47,338 nt of DNA from Vicinamibacteria bacterium (GTDB lineage: Bacteria; Acidobacteriota; Vicinamibacteria; Vicinamibacterales; UBA8438), in contig JAJEEA010000346.1 in assembly GCA_022821235.1 (NCBI GenBank), positions 1-47,338 of the forward strand. The letters run 5' to 3'. Both the position numbers and the translations under genes were made by a program. This document shows positions 4,033-11,183 of the stretch, piece after piece. Position 1 is the stretch's first letter. The number at the start of each line of letters is the position of its first letter. The notes under the pieces are model-generated. The model was not told the DNA's origin. It was given only the letters and a program-made list of their open reading frames with translations, and ran no database searches.

Positions 4033-7000
4033 TCAGCGATCGACCGCAGATCGAGAAAGAACGTTCGACAGAATGCGGTACGCACCGGGAACGCCGTAGG
4101 GGAGCTGCCGGTGGAGAGCAAGGGCCAGATACATGAAGCGGCCATCACCCACCGTGGCGGTGAGCCACACACCCTCCTGGGGGGCCTGACCCCGGTCGTG
4201 GGTCTCCACCAGGGGCGTGTAGGCCGGGTCCCAGTCGGTGAAGAACTTGGATCCCCGCTGCTCGATCCAGCCGTTGAAATCGGCTTCCGTGATGCGGTTC
4301 GGCGCGGTCAGCAAAGGGTGATCGGGAACGAGGAGGCGTACGGGCGCGTCTTCCTCGGACACTTCCTCCGCGCTCCTCGGCAGAGAGGCCGGGTACGGCG
4401 CCATCGCGGACGGCACGTACTCCTGCGTCTGGTAGAGCACGATCAGGTTGCCGCCCTGCCGCGCGTATTCCAGGAGGCCCTGGTTGTGCTCGAGCAGGTC
4501 CGGCCGGACGGCATAGGCGCGGGTGCCCACCACGATCGCGTCGAACCGGTCTTCGCCGCCGACGCCGACGCCCGCGCGCGGCAGGGTTCGTTGGGCGGCC
4601 ATCCTCGCTGCGCGGGCGTCTCGCGCCAGGGGAGCTTCCAAGGCGACCCCAAGGTCGCCCGGCGACGATTGGCGGGCCAGCGCGGCGAGGGCGGCCTCGT
4701 CCAGCAGCTCGACGGTGGCGCCGAGCGCCTCAATCCCGGCGGGAACCTCGTCGCCGACCCCCATGACGTAGCCGATGCGGGCCCCGTCGAGGCGGGCGAC
4801 GGGCACGGACCGCACGGCGGCGTGAGCCGGCCGCCAGAGCCGCGCGAGCCGCAGGTCGCGATGCTCGATCGTCCGGTACCCGGTGCGATAGGCCATGCCG
4901 GCGGCGCGGGCCACGGCCCGAAGCCGGGCGGCGCCCCGCCACCCCGCCGGCGGCGTTACCGTAAAGGACGCTTCCGCCGTCTCCCCGCGGCTCCGGAACT
5001 CGTGGAGCACGGTCTCGGGGGTCGCGGTCCAGCCGTCGGGCAGCTCGAGGCGGATCGTCGCGGCGAGAGGGCCGACGTTCGCGCTGGCGCGCACCCGCAC
5101 CTGCGCCGGCGGGAAAGCGACGGGCTCGCCCGCGCCCGCGGTCTCCGGGTCGCGGTCTTCCGCGGGCTCCCGAACGACCGTGGTCGAGGCTTCACGAGAA
5201 GGGGTGGAGGCGGCACCCGGGGCGCTGCCTTCCGCCGGCTCCGGAACCACCGGGACGATGCGGACCCCGGGCTCGACCGAGACCGACAGCACCGGCAGCA
5301 CCGCCACCTCGCGCGTCACCGAACCGTACGGCAGGCGTGGGACCTGGGCGGTGACCGGGACGGTGCGCTCGAAGACGTGCCCGGCCACGGACAGCTCGAC
5401 CGCCGCCGAGAGAGCCGGCCGCCGCCACGAGAGGTGGAGGTCGGTCGAATCGGAGATCCGGTAGTGGTTCTCCGCCAGACCGTCGCGCCTGAAGTACGGC
5501 GCGGCGGCCGGGTCGCCCTGCCCGTCTCGCGTTCGCGGGATTCGTATCTGCAGTGTCGCGACGGCGCCCCGAGGGCCGCCCGGCGCATCCGCGGTCCGGG
5601 TCGGGAGTCCGCGCCGTGGAACGCCGCGGGCTCCGGCAGGACTCGTTGGGCGCCGAGAGGAGCCGTCAGGCCACGATTGACGGGCCAGAACATCGCCACC
5701 GCGGCTCGTCACCCGTACCGCCCCCACGGTGACGTCCCCGTTTCCCGGCGTCTCGACCGCGACCCGCAGGGTCGCGGACTCCCCCGGCACGAGCACCGCG
5801 CCGCGCGCGGGCCCCTCCAGCGCCGCGACGACCCGCACCCCGCTCGCGGCCACGATGGCGTCTTCGATCTGGCGTTCCTTCAGCAGGAGGTGGAAACGGG
5901 TCTCGGGCGCTTCGGCCGAGGCCGCGATCGCCGAGCGCAGCAGTCCGAGGCCTTGGACCAGGCCCGGAACCGAACGCTCGGGTGCGCGGAAGTCGAACGC
6001 CTCGACGACGACGGCGATCGAGCGTTGCAGCTCGTCGAGCAGCGGGCCCGCCTCGGGCGCGGCTTCGCCCAGGAGCGCGGGCAGCCCGCCCAGGCTCGTA
6101 TCCAGATCGGCGAAGAACGAGGCCTCGACCTCTCCCGCGCCGGCGTCCTCTCCCGCGGCGGCGTCGTCTCCCGCGGCGGCGTCCTCTCCCTCTCCCGCCC
6201 CGGTGCCCTCTCCCGCGCTGGCGTCACCAGGCGGTATCGCCTCTGGCTCGTTGGGCTCGTCCTCTCCCGGGCCGGCGTTCTCTCCCGCGTCGTCCTCTCC
6301 CGCGCCGGCGTCCTCTCCCGCGCCGGGGTCGACCCCATCCATCCCGTCGAGTCGCTCGTAGAGGTAGCGCCCGCCCCCCGTGCGCACGCGCCCCGCGGTC
6401 TGGGAACGCTGCAGGCCGAGCCCCCGGCTCGCCCAACGCTGCCAGGTGTCGCCCAGCCACGGGCTCGACCCGGTGGCGTCCACCTCCACGTGGAACCGCT
6501 CGCCGGCCCGCACCCCGCCCCTGAACGTGCGCAGGACCCGCCACGGCCGCAGCCCTTCCTCGGTGATCTGGCGCGGAAAGCGGGCGGGGTCGGCCGCGGC
6601 CGCCACCGCCTCCGGCGTCAGCAGGCCCGCGGCGTGGTGATGGCCGTGTCCGTCCCGTTCCGAACCGTGGAACCGGCCGGCGACCACGAACGGGCGGTTG
6701 AGGCGGATGACCCGCACCATGTCCTCGAGGACGGCCTCGCGGTCCCAGCTTCGGAAGGCCTCGTCCACCGACTTGGAGTAGCCGTAGTCGACCGCCGTCG
6801 TGAAGTAGAGGTCGTCGAGGCCGTAGTAGCGTCCGGAGAGGACCAGTTCGCGGGTCCTGATCAGGCCGAGGCCGTCGAAGAGCTCCGGGCCGATGGCGTT
6901 CGCGCCGCCCTCTCCGCGGTTCAGGCTTAGGAGGGCGGTGCGCACCCCCCGGCCCCGGCTGGCCAGCGTGAGCATGCCGGCGTGCTCGTCGTCGGGGTGG

Positions 7001-7263
7001 GCGGTGACGTGGAGGAGACTGGCCGTCGTGGCCAGCTTGCGGATGCGGTGCCAGGCGCCCATCGCCCCGCCGTCCACGTCCAGACGTTCTTCCCCGACGG
7101 GCGCGGGGAAGGCGAGGACGCGGTCGAGCGGCGCCGCGGCAGGGGACGGCTGCCCCGCGAGAGCTGGACCCGCGAGCGCGCCCGCGGCCACCGCGGGGAG
7201 GACGATGAGTCCGAGCGAACGCAGGGTCCTGCCGCAGGCTGCCAGCTTCTTTCGAGCGATCAT
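4033..7263 (-). CDS. Secreted PIG-L (LmbE-like) deacetylase family protein, very large
   Basis: The product has 1076 residues from the ATG at 7263, which is followed by a clear signal peptide (MIARKK, hydrophobic stretch, ALAG near residue 37). The frame stays open further upstream, but that part has no signal and is poor coding sequence. The N-terminal PIG-L domain carries the zinc motif AHPDDEHAG (88-96) and a later HGHHHAAG. The family removes acetyl groups from N-acetylated sugars. An acidic, low-complexity stretch of Gly-Ala-Glu-Asp repeats follows (about 311-381). Next comes a long beta-rich middle part, then a C-terminal part resembling a class I glutamine-amidotransferase fold used for ligand binding. 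Residues about 525-551 are encoded by a copy of a dispersed DNA repeat. Acidobacterial homologues of similar architecture are common; the substrate is unknown. Confidence 0.85.
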   Translation of the reverse strand: MIARKKLAACGRTLRSLGLIVLPAVAAGALAGPALAGQPSPAAAPLDRVLAFPAPVGEERLDVDGGAMGAWHRIRKLATTASLLHVTAHPDDEHAGMLTLASRGRGVRTALLSLNRGEGGANAIGPELFDGLGLIRTRELVLSGRYYGLDDLYFTTAVDYGYSKSVDEAFRSWDREAVLEDMVRVIRLNRPFVVAGRFHGSERDGHGHHHAAGLLTPEAVAAAADPARFPRQITEEGLRPWRVLRTFRGGVRAGERFHVEVDATGSSPWLGDTWQRWASRGLGLQRSQTAGRVRTGGGRYLYERLDGMDGVDPGAGEDAGAGEDDAGENAGPGEDEPNEPEAIPPGDASAGEGTGAGEGEDAAAGDDAAAGEDAGAGEVEASFFADLDTSLGGLPALLGEAAPEAGPLLDELQRSIAVVVEAFDFRAPERSVPGLVQGLGLLRSAIAASAEAPETRFHLLLKERQIEDAIVAASGVRVVAALEGPARGAVLVPGESATLRVAVETPGNGDVTVGAVRVTSRGGDVLARQSWPDGSSRRPTSPAGARGVPRRGLPTRTADAPGGPRGAVATLQIRIPRTRDGQGDPAAAPYFRRDGLAENHYRISDSTDLHLSWRRPALSAAVELSVAGHVFERTVPVTAQVPRLPYGSVTREVAVLPVLSVSVEPGVRIVPVVPEPAEGSAPGAASTPSREASTTVVREPAEDRDPETAGAGEPVAFPPAQVRVRASANVGPLAATIRLELPDGWTATPETVLHEFRSRGETAEASFTVTPPAGWRGAARLRAVARAAGMAYRTGYRTIEHRDLRLARLWRPAHAAVRSVPVARLDGARIGYVMGVGDEVPAGIEALGATVELLDEAALAALARQSSPGDLGVALEAPLARDARAARMAAQRTLPRAGVGVGGEDRFDAIVVGTRAYAVRPDLLEHNQGLLEYARQGGNLIVLYQTQEYVPSAMAPYPASLPRSAEEVSEEDAPVRLLVPDHPLLTAPNRITEADFNGWIEQRGSKFFTDWDPAYTPLVETHDRGQAPQEGVWLTATVGDGRFMYLALALHRQLPYGVPGAYRILSNVLSRSAVDR
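5609..5687 (+). repeat. Copy C of dispersed palindromic element, inside the PIG-L coding frame
   Basis: It begins CGCGCCGTGGAACG and ends CCACGATTGACGGGCCA. It aligns over its full length with copies at 18408-18484 and 43851-43926. With the flanking bases the left arm (GGAGTCCGCGCCG) pairs with the right arm (CGCCGCGGGCTCC) around a TGGAA loop. Unlike the other copies it lies in a gene. The minus-strand protein remains open across it, adding a Ser/Arg/Pro-rich segment (WPDGSSRRPTSPAGARG). Confidence 0.75.
6119..6330. repeat. Short tandem repeats coding the acidic linker of the PIG-L protein
   Basis: Units of about 18 bases based on CTCTCCCGCGCCGGCGTC recur many times with small changes and encode GAGED/AAGED-like peptides on the minus strand. 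All variants seen are multiples of three, so the frame is kept. Slippage could lengthen or shorten this linker between strains. Confidence 0.75.
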
Positions 7264-7520
7264 GGGTTGAAGCCCTCGCGCGGGCAACATTCTATCTGCG
7301 CCACGACCCGGAGGAGAACCTGGGCCGCGCACACGCCGAGGAGGCCCCGCTCGAGCGCCTCCCGGGTCACCCGACCGCCGGGTCGATAAACCTGCGACCG
7401 CGCCCGAGTCAGGCATCCTGGGCGTGGATTCCTCGACTTGCCCGGGTTTTTCATGGGAATCTCACCAGTTGCTCACTTCTCGGTGAGGACTTCGCGGTTT
7501 GAATCACAGAGACTGCCCCC
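7264..7520. other. Divergent intergenic region, PIG-L / serine-hydrolase-like genes
   Basis: About 257 bases separate two outward-facing genes, so promoters for both should lie here; no convincing -35/-10 pair could be picked. A 64-codon minus frame (7454-7260) ends in an ATGA overlap with the PIG-L start and could be a leader peptide, but its Arg-rich composition argues against this. Confidence 0.4.
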
Positions 7521-8744
7521 ATGAATAGATGCACCGTTCGCCTGCTGTTCACCCTGGCCACCGCCTCGATCCTCGCCGGCTGTGGCCTGTCCCCGAGCCC
7601 GGGCGAGGACCCGGGGGCGCTGCCCGCGGATACCCTTGCGCCGCCCGCGGCCCGTTACGCCGCCCCGGTAGAGCAGGCCCGGCTGCATGCGCGGGACCTG
7701 ATCGTCGACGAGAACCTGCCGGGCGTGTCGATCGCGGTGGCCGTTAGTGGCGAGCTCGCGTGGGCCGAGGCGCTGGGGTGGTCGGACCTCGAGGAGCGCG
7801 TCCCCCTGACTCCGCGGACGCGCTTCCGCATCGGTGGAGTGTCCCAGCCCCTCACCGCGGCCGCCGTCGGCCTGCTTCTCGAGCGGGGGCTCCTCGACCT
7901 GGACACGCCCGTGGGGAGCTACGTCCCCGCGCTGCCCGACGGGCATGGGCGGGTCACGGCGCGCCAGTTGATGGGGCATGTCGCCGGGTTCGGTCACTAC
8001 GGCGGGGGAGAGAACGGGCAGGTCGACCCCGACGGCGGGCTGGTGTTCGCCCGCCGGACGTGCGCGGTCGCGGCCGATGCGACCGACATCTTCGCCGGCG
8101 ACCGGCTGCGGTTCGAGCCCGGCACGGCCTTCCGTTACTCGAGCTATGGCTGGGTCCTGGTCAGCGCGCTCGTCGAAGCGGTTGCCGGCGAACCGTTCGC
8201 CGACTTCATGGATCGCGAGGTCTTCGCGGCGGTCGGGATGCCCGACACGCTCCTCGACGCGCCGGGCGGGCCCCCGGGCGGCCACGGGCACGCCGTGCCG
8301 GGCCGGGCCGGCCTCTACTTCCCGGCGTTCGCCATGCGCACGCGGTTCGGCCTGCACGGCGCGCCGAACATCGACCACACCTGTCTCATGGGGGCGGACG
8401 GCTTCGTGTCCACGCCGAGCGACCTGGTGCGGTTCGGTGCGTCGCTGACGCGAGGCGACGTGCTCGAGCCCGGCACCGTCGAGCTGCTGCAGACGGAGGC
8501 GCAGCTCGCATCGGGCGAGCCGACAGGCTACGGCCTCGGCTGGTTCGTGCGGCGCGTGCCGCTCGACGACGCCGAGGTCCGCGTGATCGGCCACGGCGGG
8601 AGTGCGGTCGGCGGCTCGACGTCCTTCATGGCCTTCCCCGATCACGACCTCGTGATCGCCGTGTCGTCGAACGTCTCGTTCGCGGAGGACGCGGTCCGCT
8701 CGCTGGCGCTGGCGACGGCGGCGGCGTTCGCCGGCCACGAATGA
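7521..8744 (+). CDS. Beta-lactamase/serine-hydrolase family lipoprotein lacking the catalytic SxxK residues
   Basis: The 407-residue product has a lipoprotein signal (ILAGC, Cys21). The fold is that of class C beta-lactamases and penicillin-binding-protein-like serine hydrolases. Conserved parts are VSGELAWAEALGWSDLE near 75-91, the second motif region FRYSSYG (204-210) and HGGSAVGG near the C terminus (the KTG-equivalent box). The first motif should read FRIGSVSKPLT. Here residues 102-112 read FRIGGVSQPLT, so the nucleophilic Ser106 is Gly and the general base Lys109 is Gln. The rest of the domain looks intact, so this is more likely a binding or regulatory pseudo-enzyme than decay. It is transcribed alone, divergently from the PIG-L gene. 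Confidence 0.88.
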   Translation: MNRCTVRLLFTLATASILAGCGLSPSPGEDPGALPADTLAPPAARYAAPVEQARLHARDLIVDENLPGVSIAVAVSGELAWAEALGWSDLEERVPLTPRTRFRIGGVSQPLTAAAVGLLLERGLLDLDTPVGSYVPALPDGHGRVTARQLMGHVAGFGHYGGGENGQVDPDGGLVFARRTCAVAADATDIFAGDRLRFEPGTAFRYSSYGWVLVSALVEAVAGEPFADFMDREVFAAVGMPDTLLDAPGGPPGGHGHAVPGRAGLYFPAFAMRTRFGLHGAPNIDHTCLMGADGFVSTPSDLVRFGASLTRGDVLEPGTVELLQTEAQLASGEPTGYGLGWFVRRVPLDDAEVRVIGHGGSAVGGSTSFMAFPDHDLVIAVSSNVSFAEDAVRSLALATAAAFAGHE

Positions 8745-9054: not shown

Positions 9055-9927
9055 ATGCGTCTGATATGTGCAGTGGCGGTGCTGAGTGCAGCGATGGTAT
9101 CTCCGTCGCCGTACGGCGCGGCGGAACGGGAGGAGCGAATTCAGGCGGCTGGCGAGGCCGCGGAACCGTTCCGCATCATTGGCAACATCTACTATGTCGG
9201 CGGCCAGTACGGCTCCTACCTCATCACCACGCCGGAGGGCCACATTCTCCACGACACGGGCAGCGCCGACATGCACGAGCTGATCGTCTCGAACGTGGAG
9301 AGGCTCGGGTTCGACGTGCGGGACATCCGGATCATGATCTCGAGCCACGCGCATTGGGACCACGTCGAGGGACACGCGGCCATGAAGCGGGTGACCGGGG
9401 CACAGGTGGTTGCGCTCGGCGGAGACGCCGTGGCGCTCCAGTCAGGCCGGGACAACTCGGCCATAGGGGCCCGGGACTTCGAGCCTGTCACGGTGGATCG
9501 CGTGATCGAGGACGGTGACACCGTCACGCTGGGTGGGACGACGTTGCGGGCCCTGTGGACGGGGGGCCACACCCAGGGGGCAACGATGTGGATGACGACC
9601 GCCGAGGAAGGTGGAGATACCTACTCGGTAGCCTTCCGCGGCGGGGAGATTCCGAACCAGGGGGCTCCGCTCGTCGACAATCCCCGACACCCGACGGTTG
9701 TCGCCGACACGCAGAGGACCCTTCGAAGGCTGAGGGAGCTCGAGCCTCCCGACCTCTTCCTGCACAATCACGCGCGGTATCCGTCCCGCGAGCTGGACCC
9801 GGCCCTGCCCGTCGACCCGAGGTGCGCCACTTGCCTGGACGCGGAAGGCTGGAGCCGTCTCGTGGCGGGCGCCGAAGCCGGATTCGAAGAAATGCTCCGC
9901 GGAGCGGAGGGCCGACGGGACCGTTAG
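9055..9927 (+). CDS. Exported metallo-beta-lactamase-fold hydrolase, subclass B3-like
   Basis: The product has 290 residues with an N-terminal signal peptide (MRLICAVAVLSAAMVS), so it is probably periplasmic. The zinc ligand set of the fold is visible: H98-x-H100-x-D102-H103 (HAHWDH), a histidine in GHTQG (H172), and a histidine in LHNHAR (H237 or H239). Spacing and flanks (SSHAHWDHVEGHAAMKRVTGAQVVA, split here as SSHAHWDHVEGH then AAMKRVTGAQ) resemble subclass B3 beta-lactamases. Many environmental relatives have other esterase or lactonase activity. It is followed by a convergent gene, so it is probably monocistronic. Beta-lactam hydrolysis is possible but not shown by sequence alone. Confidence 0.85.
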   Translation: MRLICAVAVLSAAMVSPSPYGAAEREERIQAAGEAAEPFRIIGNIYYVGGQYGSYLITTPEGHILHDTGSADMHELIVSNVERLGFDVRDIRIMISSHAHWDHVEGHAAMKRVTGAQVVALGGDAVALQSGRDNSAIGARDFEPVTVDRVIEDGDTVTLGGTTLRALWTGGHTQGATMWMTTAEEGGDTYSVAFRGGEIPNQGAPLVDNPRHPTVVADTQRTLRRLRELEPPDLFLHNHARYPSRELDPALPVDPRCATCLDAEGWSRLVAGAEAGFEEMLRGAEGRRDR

Positions 9928-10160: not shown

Positions 10161-11183
10161 TCAGGGGGCCTGCCCGAGCTCGGCGTGGCGCGCGTTGCCC
10201 AGGATGTTGCTCACCGCCCGGTTGCCCTCGTGGCAGGCGTACTCGTAGAGGGTGTAGCTCATGTCGCGCTTCAAGGGCAGATCCAGGGTCCACGGCGCGG
10301 TGTAGACCTCCGGGTCCTCGACGCGGACCTGCCAGTCGAGGGCGTCCTCGGCGACGCGGGTGAAGCGCTCGACCACCTTCAGCGCCGGGCTGACCGGGAC
10401 GCCGTGAACACGGCCGGCGTTCTGGTTCGGGGTGATCCAGGCCTTCTCGGTGAAGTGGGTGGTCTCGACCACCAGCGTCTCCCCTTCCCACCGCCCGCGG
10501 GCGTCGCCCATCCACTGCCGGATCCGCGGGTCGACGTGCGGGCGGCCGTCGAGGGGGATGATGCGCGGCTCGCGGACCATCTCGTAGACGATGATCACGT
10601 AGCCGGGGACCTGGAGGATGTGGTTGCCGGTGTTGTACGAGTTGGGGAGCATCGACCCCGGCACGCCGCGCGTGATGCACCGGCTGTACGGGCTCATGTT
10701 CAGGTACGAATCGCTGCGGTTGGCGACCAGCCATGCGGCGCGCTCCTCGGCCTCGGGGCGCGTGGGGATTCGACCGTCCGCCGGGTCCGCTACCATCGAC
10801 GTGCGGAGGGTGGGCACGATGTGGTCGCGGGGGTCGAACCAGAAGAAGTTGTAGCCGCGGTCCAAGGAGCCGCCCGCGGCCGTCTGCTGCCGGCCGGGGG
10901 CGTTGTCCCGGTCACGCTCGCCGGTGCCGCGGCGCTCGACCGCCGCCGCCTCCTCCGCCGTGTAGAAGGCCTTGTCGCCCAGCTCGGCCGGCCGCTCGAG
11001 GGGGGTCAGGGTGTCGTTGGTCCAGATGCCGGAGATGTCGGGCTGGCCGTCGGGGGTGCGCGGCGCGCGGTAGGACGGCTCGGCTGCGGTCTGCGCCTTG
11101 GCGAAACCGGTGACGGCCGGCACGAGGACCAGGACGGTCGCGACGATTCGACAGAGTTGATATCGTGACATCCGGGTGCCCAT
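10161..11183 (-). CDS. Secreted protein of unknown function, acidobacterial family
   Basis: The product has 340 residues and an N-terminal signal peptide (hydrophobic VATVLVLVPAVTGFAKA, cleavage near AQT). A second possible start (MSRY) lies at 11171. The mature part begins with PRTPDGQPDISGIWTNDT, a signature of a family widespread in Acidobacteria and often present in many copies. Other conserved-looking segments are YNFFWFDPRDH, SRCITRGVPGSMLPNSYN, PLDGRPH, GDARGRWEGETLVVETT and YTLYEYACHEGNRAVSNIL. It has no membrane helix beyond the signal and no recognised catalytic motif. I do not know a function and do not assign one. It is convergent with the MBL-fold gene and divergent from the epimerase gene. 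Confidence 0.8.
   Translation of the reverse strand: MGTRMSRYQLCRIVATVLVLVPAVTGFAKAQTAAEPSYRAPRTPDGQPDISGIWTNDTLTPLERPAELGDKAFYTAEEAAAVERRGTGERDRDNAPGRQQTAAGGSLDRGYNFFWFDPRDHIVPTLRTSMVADPADGRIPTRPEAEERAAWLVANRSDSYLNMSPYSRCITRGVPGSMLPNSYNTGNHILQVPGYVIIVYEMVREPRIIPLDGRPHVDPRIRQWMGDARGRWEGETLVVETTHFTEKAWITPNQNAGRVHGVPVSPALKVVERFTRVAEDALDWQVRVEDPEVYTAPWTLDLPLKRDMSYTLYEYACHEGNRAVSNILGNARHAELGQAP

Follow-up and report, generated by a model that had tools for sequence, protein, structure and literature searches.

A predicted LACTB-like lipoprotein of Vicinamibacteria that has lost the SxxK serine and lysine, and its clade with a cysteine pair

Active SxxK serine hydrolases require the Ser and the Lys of that motif, and both are absent from a protein encoded in the window (the whole stretch of 47,338 nucleotides from a Vicinamibacteria bacterium analyzed here), which carries Gly at position 106 and Gln at position 109. 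What could such a protein do? An earlier note had claimed, from the letters alone, that two separate substitutions in an intact frame with a lipoprotein signal suggest a selected noncatalytic role, for example in ligand sensing or binding to the cell wall.

The gene, its motifs and its fold

Residues R101-P110 read RFRIGGVSQP (encoded by 7821-7850), with G106-V-S-Q109 at the SxxK position, and the codons in the window DNA (GGA for 106 and CAG for 109, located in RFRIGGVSQPLTA) confirmed the replacement of both residues. The frame is open over 407 amino acids and LAGC, recognized by inspection at residues 18-21, marks the product as a predicted bacterial lipoprotein, as the earlier note had described. 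The protein matches the Pfam profile PF00144 over residues 63-393 (E 2.1e-61, 208.4 bits against a curated cut-off of 27). By the motif definitions in a passage of PMC2266909, motif 2 (Tyr or Ser) is represented by Y206, and the third motif, [KH][ST]G, is replaced by H-G-G. A model predicted by AlphaFold2 with 66 sequences (mean pLDDT 88.9, pTM 0.89) has a helix at 105-121, residue 106 lying at its start, and both Foldseek and VIA-align 2 ranked LACTB first (best Z 42.2 over 329 residues at 2.0 Å). The statement that the rest of the fold and the HGG box are kept therefore stands for the predicted fold and for Y206, but the third motif is kept only in part, as HGG against HTG.

Human LACTB (PDB ID: 7v21, 7v1y, 7ulw) is the top match among solved structures by sequence (E 3.9e-34) as well as by fold, and the Ser and Lys of its SISK stand opposite G106 and Q109. 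Its catalytic motifs, given in an excerpt of PMC9815587 as SISK, YST, and HTG, are kept, in contrast to the G/Q and HGG of the window protein, and a Phe and a Tyr of LACTB stand opposite the two cysteines of the window protein discussed below. Because Gly has no side chain, the window protein cannot be acylated at position 106, which leaves binding, structure, or some other chemistry.

Table 1. Features of the LACTB-like gene, in window coordinates
Feature	Coordinates	Strand	Basis
PF00144/LACTB-like fold pseudo-hydrolase gene, 407 aa, SxxK lost	7521..8744	+	ORF, Pfam, predicted fold
Signal peptide, residues 1-20, LAG end preceding the lipobox Cys	7521..7580	+	inspection
Lipobox Cys21, predicted lipid attachment site	7581..7583	+	sequence
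Codon 106 GGA (Gly), nucleophilic Ser position	7836..7838	+	sequence, codon comparison, tree alignment
Codon 109 CAG (Gln), SxxK Lys position	7845..7847	+	sequence, codon comparison, tree alignment
C181, first clade-specific cysteine; intact relatives mostly Tyr	8061..8063	+	alignment
Y206, motif-2 Tyr kept; weighted frequency 0.69 across the degenerate group	8136..8138	+	alignment
C288, second clade-specific cysteine; intact relatives mostly Tyr	8382..8384	+	alignment
H358-G359-G360, degenerate third motif; HTG in human LACTB	8592..8600	+	alignment

Relatives, order of loss and the cysteine pair

The search for orthologues covered 60 genomes, that of the window together with those of relatives, and motifs were read from the fetched loci. 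At least 18 of the 60 carry a member of the window group, and SxxK is broken in 15 of the 17 members with a readable motif, in varied forms (GGVSQ, GSVAM, GGVAM, GTAST, GTASK, GHVSK, GTASV, and others); intact LACTB-like proteins (SISK or SVSK) form a separate set in this search, at about 37-40% identity. The congener copy (L051, listed in the same genus and named Vicinamibacteria) is 97% identical with the same codons at 106 and 109, and a 72% identical relative (L052) has GGVSK, encoded with GGC at 106 and AAG at 109. Sequencing error at the two positions is unlikely, given the codons of L051 and the Gly of L052. Because L052 has Gly yet retains Lys, the codons indicate that Ser was lost before Lys in the window's lineage, which supports the claim of two separate substitutions.

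Clade members at 5683-6776 of L073 and 1083-2157 of L049 have an intact GSVAK in broken frames, and L031, on the same contig as L073, also reads GSVAK in a broken frame; L031 and L049 are the two of the 17 readable members whose motif is intact. The frames of L073 and L049 may be broken by assembly error or in true pseudogenes; L031, L049, and L050 were omitted from alignment A1 as frame-broken or partial. A second scan, in which a 15-member alignment was run against named genomes, yielded 80 loci and, being seeded with clade members, gives no estimate of frequency. By their named records, members with the cysteine pair are mostly from Acidobacteriota, with some from Gemmatimonadota, Eisenbacteria, Bauldia, and Acidimicrobiia. 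SxxK is kept in all 18 newly fetched relatives without the pair. Clade members were found in at least 11 of 247 genomes of a phylum sample, where the ten full-length ones are 100% identical to sequences already used and so bring no new evidence, unlike the 18 relatives without the pair.

The window genome (G000) has 18 other PF00144 loci (20 matches before removal of the window gene and of a double match on contig C95, with L016-L019 judged by eye), with Ser at the SxxK position in all 18 and Lys in 17. One of these paralogues, L012 on C259, has SMTR in place of SxxK, and the locus L015/L020 on C95 has internal stop codons within its match. The intact LACTB-like paralogue L005 (SISK) is 42% identical to the window protein over the match. 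Such intact bacterial proteins share family and fold with the window protein, but they have an intact SxxK, no cysteine pair, and an NSYKWAGGG loop, against DxSCxxG in the window clade.

From 93 aligned rows, a maximum-likelihood tree was inferred after the columns of SxxK, of the cysteines, and of other motifs had been masked. Duplicates of named loci, second hits per locus, hits shorter than 240 residues (including L118 and L122), and L127, L110, L114, L115, and L004 were dropped from this tree and from an earlier one; L013, misplaced by a long branch in the earlier tree, was dropped from the 93-row tree, and L073 entered it with an off-frame tail. C181 and C288 are both present in 57 rows and both absent in 36, and no row has a single cysteine. 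Of the rows with the pair, 55 of 57 have a broken SxxK, compared with 1 of the 36 without it, an association limited by the cysteines having changed in only two events on the tree. The clade of 58 rows (the 57 and L058) has a support of 99/91, and it includes the window protein, which has C181, C288, and a degenerate SxxK. At least four changes are required on the tree for the presence of Ser and eight for the presence of Lys. The lone broken row without the pair, L058 (9881-11098), reads GTTTI at SxxK and nests inside the clade. Both Ser and Lys are retained in three clade sequences, the frame-broken L073 and L049 and the open frame of L093 (925-2115). This last, from a Gemmatimonas MAG, combines an intact GSISK with both cysteines on a basal, long branch, and judging by its sequence it is possibly an intermediate, an enzyme with the cysteine pair.

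In a comparison of residue frequencies between the groups (L058, L093, L073, L121, L129, and L130 dropped), C181 and C288 alone were listed as both group-specific and fully invariant. Intact relatives mostly have Tyr at both positions (weights 0.82 and 0.94), which suggests that the two positions form a contact pair, and we infer a C181-C288 disulfide in the periplasm. The predicted localization is also shared. Besides the window protein, 55 of the 56 Cys-pair rows surveyed have an anchor (9 a lipobox and 46 a hydrophobic segment), and the remaining row (L103) is cut at a contig end; in this survey, each frame was followed for at most 110 residues ahead of the core with no start codon required, L058 was omitted, L055 (LLPAC) counted among the hydrophobic segments, and the lipobox of L093 is weak. 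Near kin of the window protein mostly have a lipobox and the large GTAS lineage a membrane segment.

Constraint, neighborhood and alternative explanations

By its substitution pattern, the gene is under purifying selection. The Nei-Gojobori dN/dS is 0.32 between the window gene and L051 (from 26 differences) and 0.28 between these two and L052; among the 14 degenerate pairs, the 11 others within the clade range from 0.13 to 0.39, and five intact pairs from 0.10 to 0.24. Some pairs (up to 0.39) are thus above the intact ones, and some relaxation in the degenerate group is possible. Mean entropy across 318 columns is no higher in the degenerate group than in the intact group (1.43 vs 1.57 bits), a comparison that is not strict since mean pairwise identity is 0.56 in the former and 0.51 in the latter. 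For columns near invariant in the intact group, entropy in the degenerate group averages 1.53 bits at the five that belong to textbook motifs and 0.67 at the remaining 42 (P 0.008), and the Ser, Lys, and Tyr columns alone reach 2.06 bits (P 0.002), with columns treated as independent, the tree ignored, and L058, L093, and L073 dropped. The columns of a further, nine-column test were partly chosen after the residue-frequency comparison.

A slowly decaying gene, its activity lost and itself on the way out, would explain the dN/dS values above those of intact pairs, the scattered occurrence (in at least 18 of the 60 genomes of relatives and at least 11 of 247 in the phylum), and the few frame-broken copies. 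However, the clade is diverse, its frames are mostly open, constraint across the domain is like that of the intact group, the cysteines are invariant and the anchors nearly universal, so that we consider decay very improbable. A selected family of pseudoenzymes is instead the best reading of the clade, because constraint like that of the intact group extends over the domain, catalytic columns are released, dN/dS is low, and anchors and fold are kept. That the active site decayed while the remaining protein was kept points to a job that needs shape, not chemistry. The search for orthologues with the same changes and the measurement of constraint, both proposed in the earlier note, thus found a loss common to orthologues, a kept frame, and dN/dS well below 1.

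The gene neighborhood was examined by clustering ORFs of at least 100 amino acids at 58 loci, with flanks of up to 10 kb and often less. No conserved partner gene was found, in that no ORF cluster occurs at more than 10 of the 58 loci besides the gene itself and ORFs antisense to it. The two antisense clusters over the gene (51 and 26 loci) were rejected as partner genes and taken as shadows of a GC-rich coding frame. The next largest cluster (10 loci) resembles, by eye, a MacB/ADOP-like permease, and clusters of 7 loci a TolB-like winged-helix regulator, an ABC protein, and a TonB-type/carboxypeptidase-regulatory-like protein.

In the window, a gene at 10164-11183 (-) encodes a 340-residue protein with no Pfam match. 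The protein is part of a very large family, with relatives at 5 of the 56 loci with the cysteine pair and at 8 of the other 36. Several intact LACTB-like genes have such a relative as a close neighbor, for example immediately upstream of L005, L038, L039, and L044; as a partner the gene was discounted, having 114 matches in the window genome. The gene at 9055-9927 (+) encodes a metallo-beta-lactamase resembling subclass B3, which carries an HAHWDH motif and scores 224.7 bits where the NCBIfam B3 cut-off is 240. A B3-type gene adjoins the pseudoenzyme in the congeneric genome too, and among the loci fetched was matched only at these two. The gene at 4036-7416 (-) encodes a PIG-L deacetylase-like protein of 1127 residues with an acidic stretch rich in Gly, Ala, Glu, and Asp, within which gene the alignment to the congener breaks up.

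Alternatively, the pseudoenzyme could bind and regulate an intact LACTB-like enzyme that the cell also makes, with L005 as the candidate in the window genome. However, 6 of 10 phylum-sample genomes with a full-length clade member show no candidate intact match at E 1e-60, a count in which seven candidates were scored per genome, so that weaker homologs could be missed. The other four (G000, G009, G217, and G279) have an additional match, at E 1e-60 or better, that could be an intact protein; in G030 and G056 the second match scores like a clade member, and the one in G056, L112, is itself a clade row. With no extra intact-type match in those six genomes at the threshold used, a fixed enzyme partner is unlikely.

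The noncatalytic role foreseen in the earlier note could also lie in the old pocket, the dead site binding peptidoglycan peptides, D-amino acids, or beta-lactams and signaling its occupancy. The window protein keeps the fold together with Y206, H153, H159, Y160, and H358, and its own pocket may bind something; the S64G mutant of AmpC can hold a beta-lactam. Of the columns conserved in intact relatives, however, the ten most relaxed are 159, 109, 293, 289, 158, 194, 262, 106, 160, and 206, seven of which (159, 109, 293, 289, 106, 160, and 206) belong to the pocket, which argues against one ligand shared across the clade in the old site. A regulator or kinase constantly linked to the gene was not found among the 58 loci. 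We regard a sensor of this kind as rather unlikely, though it is the least improbable of the alternatives. The selected noncatalytic role thus keeps the support of the shared loss, the kept frame, and dN/dS of 0.28-0.32, but this support does not extend to its proposed form as ligand sensing, penicilloyl binding, or cell wall binding.

Across the 55 degenerate rows, residue 106 is T, H, G, S, D, or N (Thr in 34), residues that are mostly good helix caps, and residue 109 is uncharged in 44 and Lys in 11. Some rows read T-x-x-K, and catalysis might continue through Thr106 in these members or through a shifted nucleophile elsewhere. The Gly at 106 of the window protein speaks against this, and the invariant cysteine pair would, in an exported protein, better fit a disulfide; we consider such catalysis quite improbable, slightly more so than regulation of an active paralog.

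Precedents and the proposed role

The AmpC laboratory mutants S64G and K67Q have a stabilized fold and no activity. They represent the same two kinds of substitution as the window protein, but they were made by hand and are not a natural clade; PDB 1KVL and S64G are mentioned together in one passage of the literature.

The nearest precedent seen is MipB of Pseudomonas aeruginosa, described in sections of PMC10936184 as an exported lipoprotein with a beta-lactamase fold, no SXXK, and degenerate motifs 2 and 3, which copurifies with MipA and is proposed to form with it a co-sensor for ParS. By that description, both MipB and the window protein are lipoproteins that have the fold without SXXK. 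MipB, however, has 220 extra C-terminal residues with two eight-stranded barrel domains, whereas the window protein ends with the fold at residue 407, and for this reason we claim a likeness by description and not membership. MipB also has a linked mipA gene; none was seen near the window gene, and no Pfam match to the MipA family was found among seven neighboring window genes.

Excerpts on LACTB itself state that metazoan homologs conserve the catalytic serine (PMC2266909), that the polymerization residues are conserved in higher eukaryotes only, and that prokaryotic relatives are not membrane-associated (both PMC9815587); unlike in this last statement, the Cys-pair clade is predicted to be membrane-anchored. 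As an excerpt of PMC12609066 reports an active-site mutant of LACTB to be impaired, LACTB offers no precedent for a noncatalytic role.

With moderate confidence, we propose that the window protein is an exported, lipid-anchored LACTB-like pseudoenzyme that acts in membrane-tethered binding through surfaces beyond the old site. The constraint elsewhere in the domain, the cysteine pair, and the anchors would together suit a membrane-tethered domain that binds in the envelope, and the variation of the old pocket within the clade would favor binding or transduction through other surfaces over a shared sensor of a small ligand. The C181-C288 disulfide would take over the aromatic contact and stiffen the loops around the former pocket, and the domain would work without turnover, binding another envelope component through surfaces apart from the old catalytic site, as a membrane-tethered adaptor, co-sensor, or structural part. 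More tentatively, the clade could be a widespread family of membrane-tethered pseudo-hydrolases with a single origin from LACTB-like enzymes, in which the disulfide came first, Ser and Lys were then lost repeatedly and by differing routes under continued selection on the fold, and members serve as envelope receptors or transducers.

Pseudoenzymes of the penicillin-binding protein/beta-lactamase fold seem to be rarely described, MipB being the only bacterial one among the matches listed from the open-licence literature, and no description of a clade of this kind appears in the titles and abstract openings of those matches. The graded loss within the clade, from intact with the cysteine pair through Ser lost or Lys lost to both lost, makes it possible to trace the path of an enzyme fold to a noncatalytic part. 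It is also a caution that some genes annotated in environmental surveys as beta-lactamases or serine hydrolases may encode proteins incapable of these reactions.
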